A stretch of DNA of 35,383 nucleotides, taken from the NCBI GenBank assembly GCA_902532645.1, contig CACAIU010000007.1, positions 1 through 35,383 on the forward strand, in the 5' to 3' direction. Below are positions 9,876 to 19,431 of the stretch, piece by piece. A program made the translations under genes and the position numbers. Each line of letters begins with the position of its first letter. Within the stretch, counting starts at the first letter, position 1. The notes beneath the pieces were generated by a model. The model made no database searches. It was not told the DNA's origin and worked only from the letters and a program-made list of their open reading frames with translations. The stretch comes from an uncultured Pelagibacteraceae bacterium (lineage in GTDB: Bacteria; Pseudomonadota; Alphaproteobacteria; Pelagibacterales; Pelagibacteraceae).

Positions 9876-10762
9876 TTTCAAATAATAAATTAGCAATTTT
9901 TTTAATTATAATCTCAGTTTTTTGTGGAACATTGATGTTAACATTTTTAAAATTAGCACAAGAAGAAGTTAATGTTTATGTTGCTGGATTTTTTAGATTT
10001 TTATTTGGTTTACTAATTATTTTTCCCTATATGCTAAAATCTAAATTTACAGTTTTTAAAACTAATCACCATAAAAAACATTTTTTAAGAGCGGTTTTAA
10101 ATTTACCTTCAATGTTGTTATATTTTTCAGCTTTAGTAATGATGCCAATTGAGAAAGCTACAGCGATATCTTTTGTTGTTCCTTTCATAGTAACTATTTT
10201 GGCTGTTTTGTTTCTTGGAGAAAAAATTTACATATACAGAAGTTTTGCCCTAGTTTTAGGATTTATAGGAATGTTAATAATTTTAAGACCTGGAATAATT
10301 GAAATCTCTCTTGGAGTTTATATGGCATTAGCCTCTTCATTTATGTGGTCAATAGTGATTATAATTACAAAAACTATCGCAAAAGATGATAGTTCGATTA
10401 CGATTTTATCTTATGGATACACGTACATGACAATTTTTAGTTTCATTATTGCGTTGTTTTATTGGCAAACACCTAATTTTCAAACTTTGATTTATTTATT
10501 TTTTGCAGGTTTATTTGGTACATTGTTACATCTTTGCATAAATCATGCATACAAATTAGTAGATGTTAGTATGACACAACCATACTCGTTTCTAAGTTTA
10601 GTGTTTGCTTCTTTAATTGGATATTATGTTTTTAGTGAAACACCTGATCTCTATACTTGGATTGGTGCTAGCGTTATATTTTTAGGTGTTTTAATCATGT
10701 CATATCGTGAAATGAAGCTTGATAAAGAAATCATTAGAAAACGAATAGATATTAAATCTTAA
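9872..10762 (+). CDS. EamA/DMT-family transporter
   Basis: A ten-helix inner-membrane protein of 296 residues made of two EamA repeats. The first ends near residue 138 with the typical LGFIGMLIILRPG, and the second closes with WIGASVIFLGVLIMSY. The start is TTG at 9872 inside TTGA, overlapping the glycosyltransferase stop by four bases. The next Met lies inside helix 1 and would destroy it, so the TTG start is well supported. The substrate is unknown; members export amino acids, nucleobases or other metabolites. The 3' end overlaps the convergent tctA gene by four bases with no room for a terminator. Confidence 0.88.
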   Translation: MISNNKLAIFLIIISVFCGTLMLTFLKLAQEEVNVYVAGFFRFLFGLLIIFPYMLKSKFTVFKTNHHKKHFLRAVLNLPSMLLYFSALVMMPIEKATAISFVVPFIVTILAVLFLGEKIYIYRSFALVLGFIGMLIILRPGIIEISLGVYMALASSFMWSIVIIITKTIAKDDSSITILSYGYTYMTIFSFIIALFYWQTPNFQTLIYLFFAGLFGTLLHLCINHAYKLVDVSMTQPYSFLSLVFASLIGYYVFSETPDLYTWIGASVIFLGVLIMSYREMKLDKEIIRKRIDIKS

Positions 10763-12258
10763 TATTTCTTCTTAAAGGTTTTGTAAATATGCCAAACTAC
10801 AATTAAAATTGTAGTTGCTAGGATGCATGCGGTTAATGTTCTGTCCCACAAAAATTCCCACGAACCATTACTTAATAACAAAGACCTTCTAAGATTTTCC
10901 TCCATCAATCCACCTAAAACAAAAGCTAATATCAAAGGTGGCATTGGAAAATCATATAATCTTAAAAAAGTTGCAACTACTGCAATCCCAATCATTAAAT
11001 AAATATCAAAATTATTAAATGACATTACGTAAATCCCTGTAACAGAGAAAAATAAAATAAGAGGAATTAAATAATTTTTAGGAACAGCAAGAATTCTAGC
11101 AATATAAGGAATAAGTGGTAAGTTTAATATAAGAAGAATTACCATTCCAATATACATAGACATAATTATTGACCAAAAAATCTCTGGATTAGTCATGTAA
11201 AGTCTAGGACCAGGCTGAACACCAAATCCTAAAAGTGCACCTAGCATTACCGCAGTTGTTCCACTTCCCGGAATTCCTAAAGTAAGCATTGGCACAAAAG
11301 AGCCTGAGCAAGCTGCATTATTTGCAGTTTCTGGTGCAGATAAACCATTTACACTACCTTTACCAAATTTTTCTTTTTCATCATCACTAACTACGTTTCG
11401 TTCCATTCCGTAAGCTAAAAAAGATGCAATTGTTGCACCAGCTCCAGGCAAAACACCAATTAAAAAACCAATTACTGATGATCTTGGAATTGTCTTATAC
11501 ATTTTTGTTCGTTCTTCTTTATTAATTTTAATTGAGCCTAATTCAGTTAAAGAAACTTGCTTAGCAGCACTAGTTGGATCATTTCTTTTTAAAATAATTG
11601 TTAATGCTTCACTCATTGCAAAAGTTGCCATCACAACTAGTACGAAACTAATTCCGTCAGTTAAGTTCATATTGTTAAATGTAAATCTTGTAATATCAGA
11701 CAAACTATCTTGGCCAACAGATGCCAACATCAAACCAAGCACTACCATCATCATTGCTTTTAAAAATTGTCCTTTAGACGAAAAAGCAGCAATCGCTGTT
11801 AAACCTAAAATCATTAAAGCAAAGTAATCTGGTGATCTAAAAGATAAACTTACTTTTGATAAACTTGGTGCCATAAATAATAAATAAATTGCAGATAATG
11901 TACCACCTGCAAATGAACTCCATGCTGCAATCGCTAAGGCTTTTCCTGCTTTACCCTGTTGTGCCATAGGATAACCATCAAATGAAGTTGCAACTGTTCC
12001 AGGGACACCGGGTGCATTTAATAATATAGAAGAAGTAGAACCACCAAATACTGCTCCATAATAAACACCAGCCATCAAAATTAATCCTGTTGCAGGATCA
12101 AAACCATAGGTAATTGGTATCATCAATGCGATAGCTGTCATTGGCCCAAGACCAGGAAGCATTCCAATTATTGTTCCAAAAAAACAACCAACCATAACCA
12201 TTAATATGTTCTGAAAAGTAAGTGCTGTTGTTAATCCAATTAATATTCCTTCAATCAT
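10759..12258 (-). CDS. tctA: Tripartite tricarboxylate transporter, large membrane subunit TctA
   Basis: A 499-residue integral membrane protein with about 12 helices that forms the transport channel with TctB and takes ligand from the periplasmic TctC. The paired family signatures are visible: GMLPGLGPMTAIALMIP near residues 32-48 and GVLPGAGATIASFLAYGMER near 268-287. SAPETANNAACSGSFVPMLTLGIPGS follows near 307-332. The transport is secondary and ion-coupled in known members. Its ATG overlaps the tctB stop by four bases. Known TTT substrates include citrate, other carboxylates and aromatic acids; nothing here picks one. Confidence 0.95.
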   Translation of the reverse strand: MIEGILIGLTTALTFQNILMVMVGCFFGTIIGMLPGLGPMTAIALMIPITYGFDPATGLILMAGVYYGAVFGGSTSSILLNAPGVPGTVATSFDGYPMAQQGKAGKALAIAAWSSFAGGTLSAIYLLFMAPSLSKVSLSFRSPDYFALMILGLTAIAAFSSKGQFLKAMMMVVLGLMLASVGQDSLSDITRFTFNNMNLTDGISFVLVVMATFAMSEALTIILKRNDPTSAAKQVSLTELGSIKINKEERTKMYKTIPRSSVIGFLIGVLPGAGATIASFLAYGMERNVVSDDEKEKFGKGSVNGLSAPETANNAACSGSFVPMLTLGIPGSGTTAVMLGALLGFGVQPGPRLYMTNPEIFWSIIMSMYIGMVILLILNLPLIPYIARILAVPKNYLIPLILFFSVTGIYVMSFNNFDIYLMIGIAVVATFLRLYDFPMPPLILAFVLGGLMEENLRRSLLLSNGSWEFLWDRTLTACILATTILIVVWHIYKTFKKKY

Positions 12259-12725
12259 CCCATAACTCCTATTGATTGTAAGAATGGATCCCTCAAATAT
12301 ATATCAAGAATACCGTGTAGGAGATACATAAAGGCTGCAACAAATGGAAAGGATAATAAAAACATTAAAATCCATCTTCGTTCTCCTAAAAAATAATATG
12401 ACGCAAATAAAAATAAAGATGTAGTTAAAAAATATCCAACTTTTAAAATTGTAGCTCCATAAATAATAGCAATAAGTATAAGTATTCCTGTTTTCTTATA
12501 TTCTAAATTTTTATGATCAACTTTAATTGTATTTGGATCTGGTAAAATAAGTTTTAATCCAGAAAAAAATAATCCTGCATAACCTAAATAAATTGGAAAT
12601 GTTCGTGCATTAAATGGTGCATTTTCATCAAATGCAAATACTTGAATTTGGTAAGCAGTATATAAATAAAATGCTGAAAAAATAAAAAAGAGCAGTGATA
12701 TAATTTTTGTAGTATTTATATTCAC
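12255..12725 (-). CDS. tctB: Tripartite tricarboxylate transporter, small membrane subunit TctB
   Basis: A 156-residue protein with four hydrophobic segments, as usual for TctB, and the characteristic FDENAPFNARTFPIYLGYAGL segment near residues 32-52. It starts with GTG at 12725. There is no alternative start before the first helix, and there is no good Shine-Dalgarno sequence. The start codon lies inside a long hairpin followed by a T-tract (12677-12731), so translation of tctB and termination of the transcript compete for the same sequence. It lies between tctC and tctA in the usual C-B-A order. Confidence 0.88.
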   Translation of the reverse strand: MNINTTKIISLLFFIFSAFYLYTAYQIQVFAFDENAPFNARTFPIYLGYAGLFFSGLKLILPDPNTIKVDHKNLEYKKTGILILIAIIYGATILKVGYFLTTSLFLFASYYFLGERRWILMFLLSFPFVAAFMYLLHGILDIYLRDPFLQSIGVMG

Positions 12726-12731
12726 TGCTCT
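12677..12731 (-). terminator. Terminator/attenuator-like hairpin overlapping the tctB start codon
   Basis: Read on the minus strand, AGAGCAGTGA (12731-12722) pairs perfectly with TCACTGCTCT (12698-12689). After one bulged base, five further pairs (TATAA with TTATA) extend the stem to about 15 bp around a 12-nt loop. The 3' arm runs directly into TTTTTTATTTTTT (12689-12677). The 5' arm contains the GTG start codon of tctB. The layout suits partial termination after the abundant binding protein tctC, relieved when ribosomes start tctB. Confidence 0.7.
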
Positions 12732-12752
12732 AATTTCAAATAATCCTAAGGA

Positions 12753-13733
12753 TTATATAACTCCTAATTTTTTCATAAGAGCTGTCATTTCTTGAGTTTG
12801 TTTTTCTAAGAAAGAAACAAACTTGCCTTCTGGATTGTAAATATTAACCCAAGCATTTCTTGCTCTGACATTTTCCCATTCAGGAGTTTTTTGTACATCG
12901 CCAAGCATTTTTGCAATAGCTGATCTATCAGCATTGCTCATACCTGGAGGGCCAAAGAAACCTCTCCAGTTAACGAATTGTACATCATATCCTTGTTCTT
13001 TAAGAGTTGGTGCATCTGGTGCATCAGAAACTCTTGAAGGCGCAGTGATACCAATAATTCTTACTTGGTCTCTTGCACCCATCAATTCACCTAAACCAGT
13101 TGATATGATTTGAGTTTCTCCTGATAAAAGTCCAGCTAAAGCTTTTCCACCAGCATCATAAGGAATGTATTGAACAGCATTCGGATCTGCACCTGCAGCT
13201 TGGAAAGCTAAAGCACCAATTAAATGGTCCATACTTCCTCTCACTGATCCACCAGCCATTTTAACTGAATTTGGATCTTTTTTGTAAGCATCAACTACAT
13301 CTTTAAAGTTTTTAAAAGATGAACTTTTAGCAACTGCGATAGCACCGTAGTCACCAATTACACCAGCTATTGGCACAACATCTTTATAAGATAAAGTTCC
13401 ACTTCCTTTTACATAACCTTTGTGTCTAGTAATTGATCTTAATACTAATGGTGTTGATTGAACTAAAACTGTATTAGCAGGTTTAGTATTGATCATGTAA
13501 GCTAAAGCTTTACCACCACCACCACCTGACATATTTTCAAATGATGCACTACTTAACATACCAGCTTTTGTTAAAGCTTCTCCAGTACCTCTAGCGGTTC
13601 CATCCCAACCACCACCAGCACCACCACCAATTACAAAGTGCAATTTGTCAATTGCTACTGAGCTTGTAGTTGTTGCTGAGAATAATAGGATTGCTGAGAA
13701 TAATACTGAAACTATTTTTTTTAAGTTTTTCAT
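12753..13733 (-). CDS. tctC: Tripartite tricarboxylate transporter periplasmic binding protein TctC
   Basis: A 326-residue protein of the Bug/TctC family. The N-terminal signal peptide (hydrophobic stretch 9-27) is followed by FVIGGGAGGGWDGTARGTG, the family ligand-loop region. VQSTPLVLRSI, YKDVVPIAGV, the AGGSVRGSMDHL loop and YDAGGKALAGLLSGE are also typical. It captures an organic anion in the periplasm and delivers it to TctBA. The start is supported by GAGAGGG at 13747-13741, 7 nt before the ATG. The 222-nt gap to the divergent AbrB gene holds the promoters of both. Confidence 0.93.
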   Translation of the reverse strand: MKNLKKIVSVLFSAILLFSATTTSSVAIDKLHFVIGGGAGGGWDGTARGTGEALTKAGMLSSASFENMSGGGGGKALAYMINTKPANTVLVQSTPLVLRSITRHKGYVKGSGTLSYKDVVPIAGVIGDYGAIAVAKSSSFKNFKDVVDAYKKDPNSVKMAGGSVRGSMDHLIGALAFQAAGADPNAVQYIPYDAGGKALAGLLSGETQIISTGLGELMGARDQVRIIGITAPSRVSDAPDAPTLKEQGYDVQFVNWRGFFGPPGMSNADRSAIAKMLGDVQKTPEWENVRARNAWVNIYNPEGKFVSFLEKQTQEMTALMKKLGVI

Positions 13734-13955: not shown

Positions 13956-15032
13956 ATGATTAATCATCAAATCATATTTTACCTTAATAATGCAAAACAA
14001 GTTTTTTCAATTAAATTTGTTACTGTTCTAATAATTTCTATTCCTAGCGCAATTATTGCTGACTATTTTAATATTCCTCTAGCTTGGTTTTTAGGCCCTA
14101 TGATTATCACCTCAATTGCTGCTTTATCTGGTCTAAAAATCCTGATGCCTAAAATTGTATTAAGTTTTATCTTGATAATTTTAGGTTTGCATATTGGAAA
14201 TTACATAGACCAAAATTTGTTTAATCAAATGCTTGATTGGATTTGGACTTCATTAATTATGTTAATCTACATAATAATTTGTATTTTAGTTGTCGCTAAA
14301 TACCTCCAAAAATTTGCAAGTTATGGAGAAAAAGCTTCAATATTTTCAGCAGCACCTGGGGCATTGGGTCCTTTAATGATTTTAGCAGAAAATGAAAAAA
14401 CAGATTTATCTCAAGTTGCAACCTCTCACTTAATTAGATTAATCATCATAATAACTGTCATTCCATTTATTATAGTTAATAATACTGACAACAGTGTTTT
14501 GTTAAATAATGACTTCGATTATTTAGCTCAAAATCATTTCAATTTAATTTTACTTATTATTACGTCTTTGTTTTTTATATTTGTTTTTGATAAAATTAGA
14601 ATACCAGCAGCTTTACTTTCTGGAACATTATTTGCTAGTGGTTTGTTGCAAATTACTGATATAGCTTCTTATAAATTACCAGATGAAACAGTAAATTTTT
14701 GTTTGCTAATTCTTGGTTCTTCAGTTGGTTGTAGATTTGCTGAAAAAACTGTTAAAGAAATAGCCAATAATTCTCTTCATAGTATTGTAGCTACTACTAT
14801 TTTGGTAGTATTAGGTTTACTTGCAGCCTATGTTGCAACATTTTTTGTTGAGACAAATATTTTAACTCTAATTTTATCTTTTAGTCCTGGTGGAATTTAT
14901 GAGGTAGCAGTTATAGCAATTGCATTTGATTTAGACCCAGACTTTGTTGCTTTTCACCATATAATAAGATTACTTTTCATACTTTTCACAGTTCCTATAT
15001 TTTTAAGAGTATTAGAAAAAATTAGGAAATAA
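13956..15032 (+). CDS. AbrB-family integral membrane protein (membrane AbrB duplication)
   Basis: A 358-residue membrane protein with two homologous halves of about five helices each. The first half contains FNIPLAWFLGPMIITSIAA (about 37-55) and FSAAPGALGPLMILAE (about 129-144). The second contains IRIPAALLSGTLFASGLLQ and SFSPGGIYEVAVIAIAFDLDPDFVAFHHIIR. These match the family once labelled 'ammonia monooxygenase' or regulator AbrB, whose real function is poorly established. It is divergent from tctC, and such proteins are often found beside TTT or TRAP systems, so a link to the same substrate is plausible but inferred. The 3' end overlaps the convergent GT9 gene by 11 nt. Confidence 0.85.
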   Translation: MINHQIIFYLNNAKQVFSIKFVTVLIISIPSAIIADYFNIPLAWFLGPMIITSIAALSGLKILMPKIVLSFILIILGLHIGNYIDQNLFNQMLDWIWTSLIMLIYIIICILVVAKYLQKFASYGEKASIFSAAPGALGPLMILAENEKTDLSQVATSHLIRLIIIITVIPFIIVNNTDNSVLLNNDFDYLAQNHFNLILLIITSLFFIFVFDKIRIPAALLSGTLFASGLLQITDIASYKLPDETVNFCLLILGSSVGCRFAEKTVKEIANNSLHSIVATTILVVLGLLAAYVATFFVETNILTLILSFSPGGIYEVAVIAIAFDLDPDFVAFHHIIRLLFILFTVPIFLRVLEKIRK

Positions 15033-17165: not shown

Positions 17166-17843
17166 CTATTGTTGAAAACTGTACTTTTTTTCTAAATATT
17201 TAATGACGTTATGAATGATAAAAGTCATAAACAAATAAATTCCTCCAGCAACAACAAATACTTCTATTGGTTTAAAAGTTGTTGAAATTATATATTTAGC
17301 AACACCAGTTAAATCCATCAAGGTTACTGTACTTGCTAATGAAGTGCCTTTCATCATCAATATTATTTCATTTCCGTATGCTGGAAGTGATTGTCGAATT
17401 GCAATTGGAATTTGAATTTTAAAAAAGATTATCTTATTTGATATACCTAAACTTTTTCCAGCCTCGATTATACCTGGTTTTATTGTTTGAAATGCTGATC
17501 TTAAAATTTCAGAGGTATAAGCACCAGTATTTAGAGTAAAAGCTATGATTGCACACCAATATGGTTCTTTTAAAATAACCCATAAAAATGTTGTTCTTAA
17601 ATATTCGATTTGTCCTAATCCAAAATAAATAATAAAAATCTGAACCAACAAAGGTGTTCCTCTAAATATGTAAGAATAAACGTATGCAAATTTATTAATA
17701 AATATATTTTTATTTAATCTTAAAATTGCAAAAAAAAGACCTAAGAACAATCCAAAAAACAGAGATGCAGACAATAGTTTTAATGTAACAATGGTTGCTC
17801 CTAAAAGTTTGGGGAAACTAGTTATCATTAAATCTAAATCCAT
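17166..17843 (-). CDS. Polar amino acid ABC transporter permease (HisM type)
   Basis: A 225-residue inner-membrane permease of the His/Glu/Gln/Arg family with five helices. The EAA loop, which contacts the ATPase, is EAGKSLGISNKIIFFKIQIPIAIRQSLP near residues 140-167 with its conserved glycine. The family N-terminal region YIFRGTPLLVQIFIIYFGLG near 57-76 is intact. It overlaps the upstream permease by one base (TAATG). The two permeases form a heterodimer with an ATPase that is not encoded here. Confidence 0.92.
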   Translation of the reverse strand: MDLDLMITSFPKLLGATIVTLKLLSASLFFGLFLGLFFAILRLNKNIFINKFAYVYSYIFRGTPLLVQIFIIYFGLGQIEYLRTTFLWVILKEPYWCAIIAFTLNTGAYTSEILRSAFQTIKPGIIEAGKSLGISNKIIFFKIQIPIAIRQSLPAYGNEIILMMKGTSLASTVTLMDLTGVAKYIISTTFKPIEVFVVAGGIYLFMTFIIHNVIKYLEKKYSFQQ

Positions 17844-18535
17844 TAATACCCCCTGCTATACTTAACTTCTAACTTGTTAATTAATTTCATACTTACGTAA
17901 GTAAGCAATAGATACAAAACTGCTGCAAATGAATAGAAAAATAATGGATCTCTCGTTGAACCAGCTGCTATATATGATTGTCTCATAATCTCTACTAATC
18001 CTGTTACTGAAATAAGAGAAGTGTCTTTTAAAGTTATTTGCCAAACATTACTTAAATTTGGAATAGCCAATCTTAACATCTGGGGGAGAATTATTTTATA
18101 AAATTGCCCAAACTTATTTATTCCAAGTACCTTTGCTGCTTCAAACTGGCCTTTATCTATTGATTGAATCGCTCCCCGAAATACTTCAGTTGAATAAGCT
18201 CCTGATATAATACCAATAGCCATTGAACCAGTAATAAATGCATTAATCTCTATGTATTCGTAATAACCGAAAATTGAAGCTACATACATGATAGCCCCAC
18301 TTCCCCCAAAGAAAAAAAGATAAATTACAAGTAATTCAGGCACTCCACGGATTACTGTTGTGTAAAAATTACCTACTAAATTTAAAGCTTTATACTTTGA
18401 GAGTTTTAGAGGTGTAAAAATTAATGCGAAAAGGAAACCAACCAACATTGCGGTAATCGATACAGCAATTGTCATTAAGGTTGCGTAAAATAATTCGTCA
18501 CCCCAACCTGTTTTGCCAAATGCTAGAAGTTCCAT
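17843..18535 (-). CDS. Polar amino acid ABC transporter permease (HisQ type)
   Basis: A 230-residue permease paired with the one that follows. YTTVIRGVPELLVIYLFFFGG near residues 57-77 and the EAA loop EAAKVLGINKFGQFYKIILPQMLRLAIP near 138-165 are typical. The long cytoplasmic insert GYYEYIEINAFI suits the octopine/arginine-type branch. Its ATG lies only 6 nt after an 11-bp intercistronic hairpin that separates it from the binding-protein gene, and no Shine-Dalgarno sequence is visible. Confidence 0.92.
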   Translation of the reverse strand: MELLAFGKTGWGDELFYATLMTIAVSITAMLVGFLFALIFTPLKLSKYKALNLVGNFYTTVIRGVPELLVIYLFFFGGSGAIMYVASIFGYYEYIEINAFITGSMAIGIISGAYSTEVFRGAIQSIDKGQFEAAKVLGINKFGQFYKIILPQMLRLAIPNLSNVWQITLKDTSLISVTGLVEIMRQSYIAAGSTRDPLFFYSFAAVLYLLLTYVSMKLINKLEVKYSRGY

Positions 18536-18541
18536 ATAGAT

Positions 18542-18566
18542 TGGCGACTATATCTTATAGTCGCCA
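18542..18566 (-). promoter_or_regulatory. Intercistronic hairpin between binding protein and permease genes
   Basis: TGGCGACTATA (18566-18556 and its complement at 18552-18542) forms an 11-bp perfect stem with a 3-nt loop in the 44-nt gap between the binding-protein stop and the HisQ-type ATG. No T-tract follows, so it is not a standard terminator. It is better placed to protect the 3' end of the binding-protein mRNA, or to dampen initiation at the permease start 6 nt downstream. Confidence 0.7.
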
Positions 18567-18579
18567 GATCTGAAATGAA

Positions 18580-19431
18580 TTACATAGATGCGTCGAAACC
18601 AAAGTGCTTAATAGCAAGTTTGCTTATAATTCCTTGTTTTCTAGCTTTGTTAATTGCTTTATTGAAGTCTTTTAAGATTTTGGCATCTCTTTTTCCAATC
18701 GCACTATCGCTAGCTTGTCTGATACCAACACCTACACCATTACCAAATGCACCACCTGAAAAAGTTGGACCAACTAATACAACTGGTTTACCTGATTTGT
18801 CTGCATAATCTGTAAATGCTACTGCTGCAGCTAAAGCAACATCACATCTTCCAGAAGTTAGATCTAGGTTAACTTCATCTTGAGTTTTGTAAGTTCTAAC
18901 ATTCACACTTCCTACGTCACCTGACTCTAAAAAGTTTTGGTGAATTGTTCCTGTTTGAGTACATACTGTTTTACTAGCAAGTGCTCCAGTTAAAGTTTTA
19001 AGAGCTTTCTTAACATCAGATCCACCTAATGATAAATTAATACCTTCTGGTGTATCCATACCCTCTAAACTTGAACCTTTCATTACCGCAAGAGAAGCTA
19101 CTTCGTCAGCATAACCTTGTGAAAAAGTAATTGTTTTTTGTCTTTCAGCAGTAATTGACATTCCAGCCATTATTGCATCAAACTTTCTCATTACTAAAGC
19201 TGGGATCATTCCATCCCAATCTTGTTCAACAATTGTGCACTCATACTTCATTATTGTACAAAGTTCTTGAGCAAGCTCAACCTCAAAACCGATTAGATTA
19301 CCTGAAGCATCTTTTGAATTCCATGGAGGGTAAGCTCCTTCAGTTCCAATTTTTATTTTTTCAGCAGAAACATTTCCAATGATAAATAAAGAAGCAAGAA
19401 CTGTTAAAATAGTTTTTTTGAATATATTCAT
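18580..19431 (-). CDS. Polar amino acid ABC transporter periplasmic binding protein
   Basis: A 283-residue type II binding protein with a signal peptide (cleavage after about Ala23). IGTEGAYPPWN at the start of the mature part binds the ligand alpha-amino group side. WDGMIPALVMRKFDAIMAGMSIT is the family centre, and the late SGRCDVALAA region with FGNGVGVGIRQ fits the lysine/arginine/ornithine/octopine subgroup. A basic amino acid or opine-like ligand is therefore likely. The start has a strong Shine-Dalgarno sequence, AAAGGAG, at 19444-19438, 6 nt before the ATG. It leads the operon with two permeases and the PhyH oxygenase. Confidence 0.92.
   Translation of the reverse strand: MNIFKKTILTVLASLFIIGNVSAEKIKIGTEGAYPPWNSKDASGNLIGFEVELAQELCTIMKYECTIVEQDWDGMIPALVMRKFDAIMAGMSITAERQKTITFSQGYADEVASLAVMKGSSLEGMDTPEGINLSLGGSDVKKALKTLTGALASKTVCTQTGTIHQNFLESGDVGSVNVRTYKTQDEVNLDLTSGRCDVALAAAVAFTDYADKSGKPVVLVGPTFSGGAFGNGVGVGIRQASDSAIGKRDAKILKDFNKAINKARKQGIISKLAIKHFGFDASM

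Follow-up and report, generated by a model that had tools for sequence, protein, structure and literature searches.

The tctC-tctB-tctA operon of a Pelagibacteraceae (SAR11) genome, which encodes a tripartite tricarboxylate transporter (TTT), carries a strong hairpin across the start codon of tctB, directly after the gene for its solute-binding protein (SBP). SAR11 cells rely on very abundant SBPs, their small genomes leave little space between genes, and the locus raises the question of what such a hairpin does there: does it end the tctC message, protect it, hold back the next gene, or combine these roles? A sequence-only reading of the window (the whole 35,383-nucleotide stretch of DNA that was analysed, from an assembly of 58 contigs and 70.5% completeness) had proposed a terminator, built as a stem of about 15 bp that has a T-tract and takes in the tctB GTG on its 5′ side; it would give high binding-protein and low membrane-subunit output.

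Anatomy and stability of the tctB-start hairpin

The three tct genes form one operon on the minus strand of the window, with a gap of 27 nt between tctC and tctB; an AbrB-family (PF05145) membrane protein gene lies divergent from tctC at 13956-15032 on the plus strand. The features of the operon and the junction are as follows.

tctC, 12753..13733, minus strand: solute-binding protein of the tripartite tricarboxylate transporter (Pfam TctC PF03401, E 2e-12)
tctC stop codon, 12755-12753, minus strand
Small AT-rich hairpin, 12740..12756, minus strand: ATAATCC-TTA-GGATTAT, straddling the tctC stop codon, by sequence
tctB, 12255..12725, minus strand: small membrane subunit (Pfam TctB PF07331, E 8.7e-14)
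tctA, 10759..12258, minus strand: large membrane subunit (Pfam TctA PF01970, E 2.9e-153)
5′ arm, 12722..12731, minus strand: AGAGCAGTGA, holding the tctB GTG start; core pairs in 126 of 126 distinct junctions
tctB start codon, 12723..12725, minus strand: GTG, invariant in 126 of 126
Inner helix, 5′ side, 12716..12720, minus strand: TATAA, with compensatory changes at pairs 6/27 and 9/24
Inner helix, 3′ side, 12699..12703, minus strand: TTATA
3′ arm, 12689..12698, minus strand: TCACTGCTCT, within tctB codons 10-13, with the rare Leu codons CTG CTC
U-rich tail, 12677..12689, minus strand: T6-A-T6, Phe-Phe-Ile-Phe codons, terminator-like in the window

The proposed architecture was borne out: the hairpin spans 12689-12731 and consists of a perfect outer stem of 10 bp, AGAGCAGTGA (12731-12722) with TCACTGCTCT (12698-12689), and an inner 5-bp stem (TATAA/TTATA) above a single bulged A, about 15 bp in all, followed by the T6-A-T6 tail. 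Together, the 3′ arm and the tail supply the codons for TctB residues 10-17. A 121-nt fold of the plus strand reached −27.3 kcal/mol (z = −5.2), with none of 200 shuffles equally stable, and a 126-nt fold of the mRNA strand reached −29.4 kcal/mol with the hairpin present in the minimum-energy structure. The tctB start region ranked fourth in stability among 410 scanned gene starts, with all three start-codon bases paired; two of the three higher-ranked starts lie at another SBP-permease junction, once in the window and once in a relative, and the third is a GC-rich fold, tRNA-like in look, under a false start. Searching a 1.46-Mb relative for perfect 10-bp arms with at least five G/C and a spacer of 15-30 nt returned seven positions (about four sites), the tct site included, against 1, 0 and 0 in shuffled copies. 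With a loop of 12-23 nt, the hairpin escaped a simple terminator scan, which allows loops of at most 8 nt.

Conservation and covariation in Pelagibacteraceae

Relatives of tctB came from 80 GTDB contigs and from searches at family, order and class level, with sequence retrieved for 60 diverse junctions. The comparison set spanned several genera of Pelagibacteraceae and held 126 distinct junctions (TctB identity 67-100%), many of them closely related, and raw counts from it overstate the independent evidence. All 126 form the ten core pairs and have the GTG paired, in support of the earlier proposal that the hairpin would hide the tctB start. Codon 11 of tctB (Leu) is CTG in every junction; at codon 12, 118 junctions have CTC and the other 8 CTT. 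The CTT junctions are exactly those in which A replaces G at position −5, both sides of the pair having changed, with pair −5/36 being G-C in 118 junctions, A-U in 8 and an intermediate in none. When the Leu codons of the window are counted together with those from part of a complete relative, CTG has a share of 2.0% and CTC one of 1.9%; inside the compared tct genes themselves the shares are 1-2.4%. A protein-level constraint behind CTG-CTC was ruled out, the synonymous Leu codons being far commoner, and selection on the stem appears to override codon preference at tctB.

Covariation in the stem had been set beforehand as a test of the hairpin and was found, not only at −5/36 but also at pairs 6/27 (U-A, A-U or G-C in 112 junctions) and 9/24 (A-U or U-A in 118). 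On a tree built from tctB codons 21 onwards, with the element left out, the minimum number of changes was at least four at −5/36, at least eight at 6/27 and at least eight at 9/24. Changes to G-U were also repeated on the tree, U-A to U-G at pair 2/30 seven times and A-U to G-U at pair −1/32 four times. The recurrence of compensatory and G-U changes indicates, from comparative sequence, that an RNA helix over the tctB start is under selection. The tolerance of G-U argues for sense-RNA pairing over a DNA dyad, with codon constraint making the possible changes unequal, and the strict conservation could partly stem from a DNA-level constraint or an RNA-binding protein.

The genomes that miss the exact pattern (G004, G027, G075, G117, G120 and G128) still form the stem, with one pair lost or replaced by a wobble. 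The hairpin sequence is single-copy in each genome and is no dispersed REP sequence, which rules out a dispersed repeat or a regulon operator. No Rfam family or riboswitch matched the element, and the sole match in the window at gathering score was a tRNA. Another start for tctB, upstream or downstream, was ruled out by the invariant GTG; many relatives have in-frame stops close upstream, and no downstream start codon occurs ahead of the first membrane helix. In one contig (L314; G168:C18:3400-5152) the tctB relative is apparently frame-broken, being split into two overlapping pieces and interrupted by one in-frame stop, with its start hairpin intact.

The U-tract and coverage of the start codon

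We divided the junctions into a near set (TctB identity of at least 80%, 84 sequences) and a distant set (42 sequences). Throughout the near set, codon 13 is TTT (84/84) and the U-tract is intact, with a T6-A-T5/6 tail averaging 7 T of 8 and a positive E. coli terminator score. Of the 42 distant sequences, 28 have TTC at codon 13 (background 24%), which breaks the U-tract and leaves the stem unchanged, and the terminator-like tail is not conserved wherever the stem is kept. The helix instead extends outward in the distant set, where positions −7 to −10 (AGGA/GGAGG, the Shine-Dalgarno (SD) sequence) pair with 38-41 in 35-39 of the 42; no clear SD is present in the window's genus, where the hairpin covers the start codon only. 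A genome from another order (G526, TctB identity 44%) and its relative G823 have an unrelated strong hairpin at the tctB start, in which the region of a GGAGG-type SD and UUG start is paired with CCTCCTCC, early coding sequence. Most of 14 other alphaproteobacterial loci, from larger genomes and judged by eye, showed no comparable start-covering hairpin. The U-tract is broken in most of the distant set while the start stays covered, there and in the other order, which makes coverage of the start, as read from the alignments, the constant feature and the terminator-like tail a trait confined to one part of the family.

Hairpins after solute-binding protein genes

We computed the best junction hairpin for 1060 same-strand gene pairs of a complete 1.457 Mb SAR11 genome (G035), the gene calls under all genome-wide counts being naive ORF calls. 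A hairpin-blind filter, requiring a signal-peptide-like protein upstream and a membrane protein downstream, left 28 pairs, which split clearly into strong- and weak-hairpin groups. The strong-hairpin pairs follow SBP genes according to Pfam (DctP, SBP_bac_3/5/8, OpuAC, NMT1_3, PBP_like_2 and Phosphonate-bd), with tctC of this genome assigned through homology to the TctC of the window, whereas the weak-hairpin pairs scanned by Pfam follow non-SBP genes, except for one SBP_bac_3. Within this hairpin-blind subset, 16 of 17 SBP junctions fell below −14 kcal/mol. After the addition of six Pfam-checked SBP pairs, most of them spotted through their hairpins, the total was 22 of 23 SBP junctions below −14 kcal/mol vs. 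11 of 152 others, the controls being gap-matched with gaps of 25-100 nt (Fisher p 8e-19). Similarly, in G526 (second order, 800 kb), where SBPs were picked by phmmer alone, a hairpin was found at 10 of 10 SBP junctions vs. 22 of 118 others. The higher binding-protein and lower membrane-subunit output proposed from the window is consistent with this position of the hairpin, which recurs after other SBP genes.

A T-run of at least five accompanies 14 of the 23 SBP hairpins in G035 by an automatic count, which is rough and mis-anchors a few; a U-tract is missing from several other hairpins at SBP junctions, and many SBP junctions have hairpins unrelated in sequence. The tct junction is the extreme: its hairpin clearly extends over the start codon of the next gene. 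A second example from the window is the following.

Second SBP-permease junction hairpin, 18543..18565, minus strand: GGCGACTATA-AGA-TATAGTCGCC, perfect 10-bp, without U-tract

It lies on the minus strand between an SBP_bac_3 gene (18580-19431) and a permease gene (17843-18535; Pfam BPD_transp_1), a few bases ahead of the permease ATG, and G035 has the same arrangement.

Across G035 (L192-L211 and L215-L267), strong same-strand junction hairpins concentrate after the SBP genes of ABC, TRAP and TTT systems. At a DctP-DctQ (TRAP) junction (L205:9180-9260), the T6 behind the hairpin ACCCCACAT/ATGTGGGGT stops only a few bases short of the likely DctQ ATG, a tct-like near-overlap.

Known systems and alternative explanations

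Intercistronic hairpins of the malE-malF type were reportedly described in E. coli by Newbury in 1987. As at tct, a stable hairpin there stands directly after the SBP gene and before the membrane subunits of a shared operon, but the tct hairpin contains the next start codon, has a coding 3′ arm and involves no REP sequence, and the SAR11 hairpins, known here from sequence, follow nearly every ABC, TRAP and TTT SBP gene. Five ABC operons of E. coli are under decay-based control in which the stabilised segment is always the SBP gene (Dar and Sorek 2018, PMC5927463), and most stabilised 5′ segments in that species are bounded by stable 3′ hairpins (PMC5927463). The tct hairpin might likewise be a decay barrier and nothing else, shielding processed tctC mRNA from 3′-5′ exonucleases while transcription runs through; its location matches that in E. 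coli (PMC5927463), and the presence of hairpins at 22 of 23 SBP junctions, several without a U-tract, speaks for such a role. Alone, however, a decay barrier leaves unexplained why the stem should enclose the tctB start codon, along with the SD in distant genera, and as a complete account we hold it to be tentative and rather unlikely. A plain leaky intrinsic (Rho-independent) terminator after tctC, whose overlap with the tctB start would be a by-product of the short gap in a compact genome, resembles what is seen in the window's genus, a G+C-containing stem followed by U6-A-U6, and it agrees with the tail, the invariant TTT codon and the positive terminator score of the near relatives and with the T-runs counted at SBP junctions. 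It accords less well with the long loop, the coding nature of the 3′ arm and tail, the distant relatives that lose the U-tract and keep the hairpin, the SBP-junction hairpins without a U-tract, and the recurrence of start/SD overlap in another order with unrelated sequence; we consider it a possible but doubtful explanation of the whole. The terminator of the sequence-only reading thus stands as far as the U-tract of the window and its near relatives goes, and the TTC codons of the distant set, the other tail-less hairpins and the loop length tell against it beyond them.

Hairpins that occlude a start codon or SD in mRNA offer another comparison, since the tct start codon is paired in all relatives and, in several genera, the SD is paired with early coding sequence; unlike the known cases, tct has no known ligand or opener and the window's tctB no clear SD. 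A regulated switch, in which an sRNA, a protein, temperature or a ligand opens the hairpin and turns on tctB, would draw on this fully paired, family-wide conserved start codon, and translation-controlling riboswitches, such as SAM-V, are known in SAR11 (PMC6061858). Against it, the element lacks both a conserved aptamer-like loop and an Rfam match, its loop is free coding sequence and no opener was identified, which makes regulated opening improbable in our view. If the arms instead bound a dimeric regulator as DNA, the perfect dyad, the spacing of the arms by about three helical turns and the double change at −5/36, which preserves the dyad, would all be accommodated. Yet the G-U changes at 2/30 and −1/32 keep RNA pairing and break DNA symmetry, covariation is also seen outside the arms, in the inner helix and the SD extension, the site is single-copy in each genome and many other SBP-junction hairpins are unrelated in sequence, and we regard a DNA operator as very improbable.

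Conserved hairpins in SAR11 have been reported before. Meyer et al. 2009 (PMC2704228) presented candidate motifs of 'Ca. Pelagibacter ubique', among them a rhtB/liv-associated hairpin with poly-U in about half of cases. That survey was limited to long intergenic regions, coding sequence being excluded (PMC2704228), and the term tct is absent from its main text. A search of the open-licence literature turned up no account of a hairpin rule for SAR11 SBP junctions. An intercistronic hairpin after an SBP gene and a start-occluding hairpin are each already known; within the literature searched, what appears to be new is the overlap of both kinds in coding sequence, its family-wide conservation overriding codon preference, and a near-universal SAR11 rule across ABC, TRAP and TTT systems.

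Proposed role of the hairpin

We propose that the hairpin is probably a stoichiometry device, which marks the boundary between the SBP and membrane-subunit messages and keeps tctB output below that of tctC. From the sequence patterns described above we infer that the hairpin influences RNA ends and RNA stability, translation and stoichiometry. In the window's genus, stem and tail may end the tctC mRNA by leaky termination, or the stem may protect it as a barrier to 3′-5′ decay, as in malE-malF. On full-length transcripts, tctB translation would be throttled by the enclosure of the start codon, and of the SD too in several genera, within the stem, and an initiating ribosome would have to outpace the folding of a helix completed about 37 nt past the start codon. 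The tct junction would then be a limit case of compaction, where one set of bases serves as stem and tail, as start codon and as protein code. A hairpin-after-SBP rule would explain an excess of SBP over membrane subunit with little regulation, and would carry the E. coli malE finding over to TRAP and TTT systems.

Translation-dependent read-through, which had been suggested with a perhaps from the window alone, would be no more than a possibility. In its strongest form, tctB initiation and transcription past the hairpin would be one decision, a timely ribosome preventing the stem, a proposal to which we attach little credence. If true, that ribosome would both allow tctB translation and cancel termination, membrane-subunit mRNA would be made only when initiation capacity is free, and the operon would contain a conserved initiation-dependent antiterminator. 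Unlike in translational coupling, the tctC stop codon lies 27 nt upstream of the GTG and a ribosome terminating there is not expected to reach the core stem; its footprint is expected over the stop-codon hairpin.

Many relatives also fold hairpins at the tctC stop codon, with a different sequence and possibly compensatory changes.
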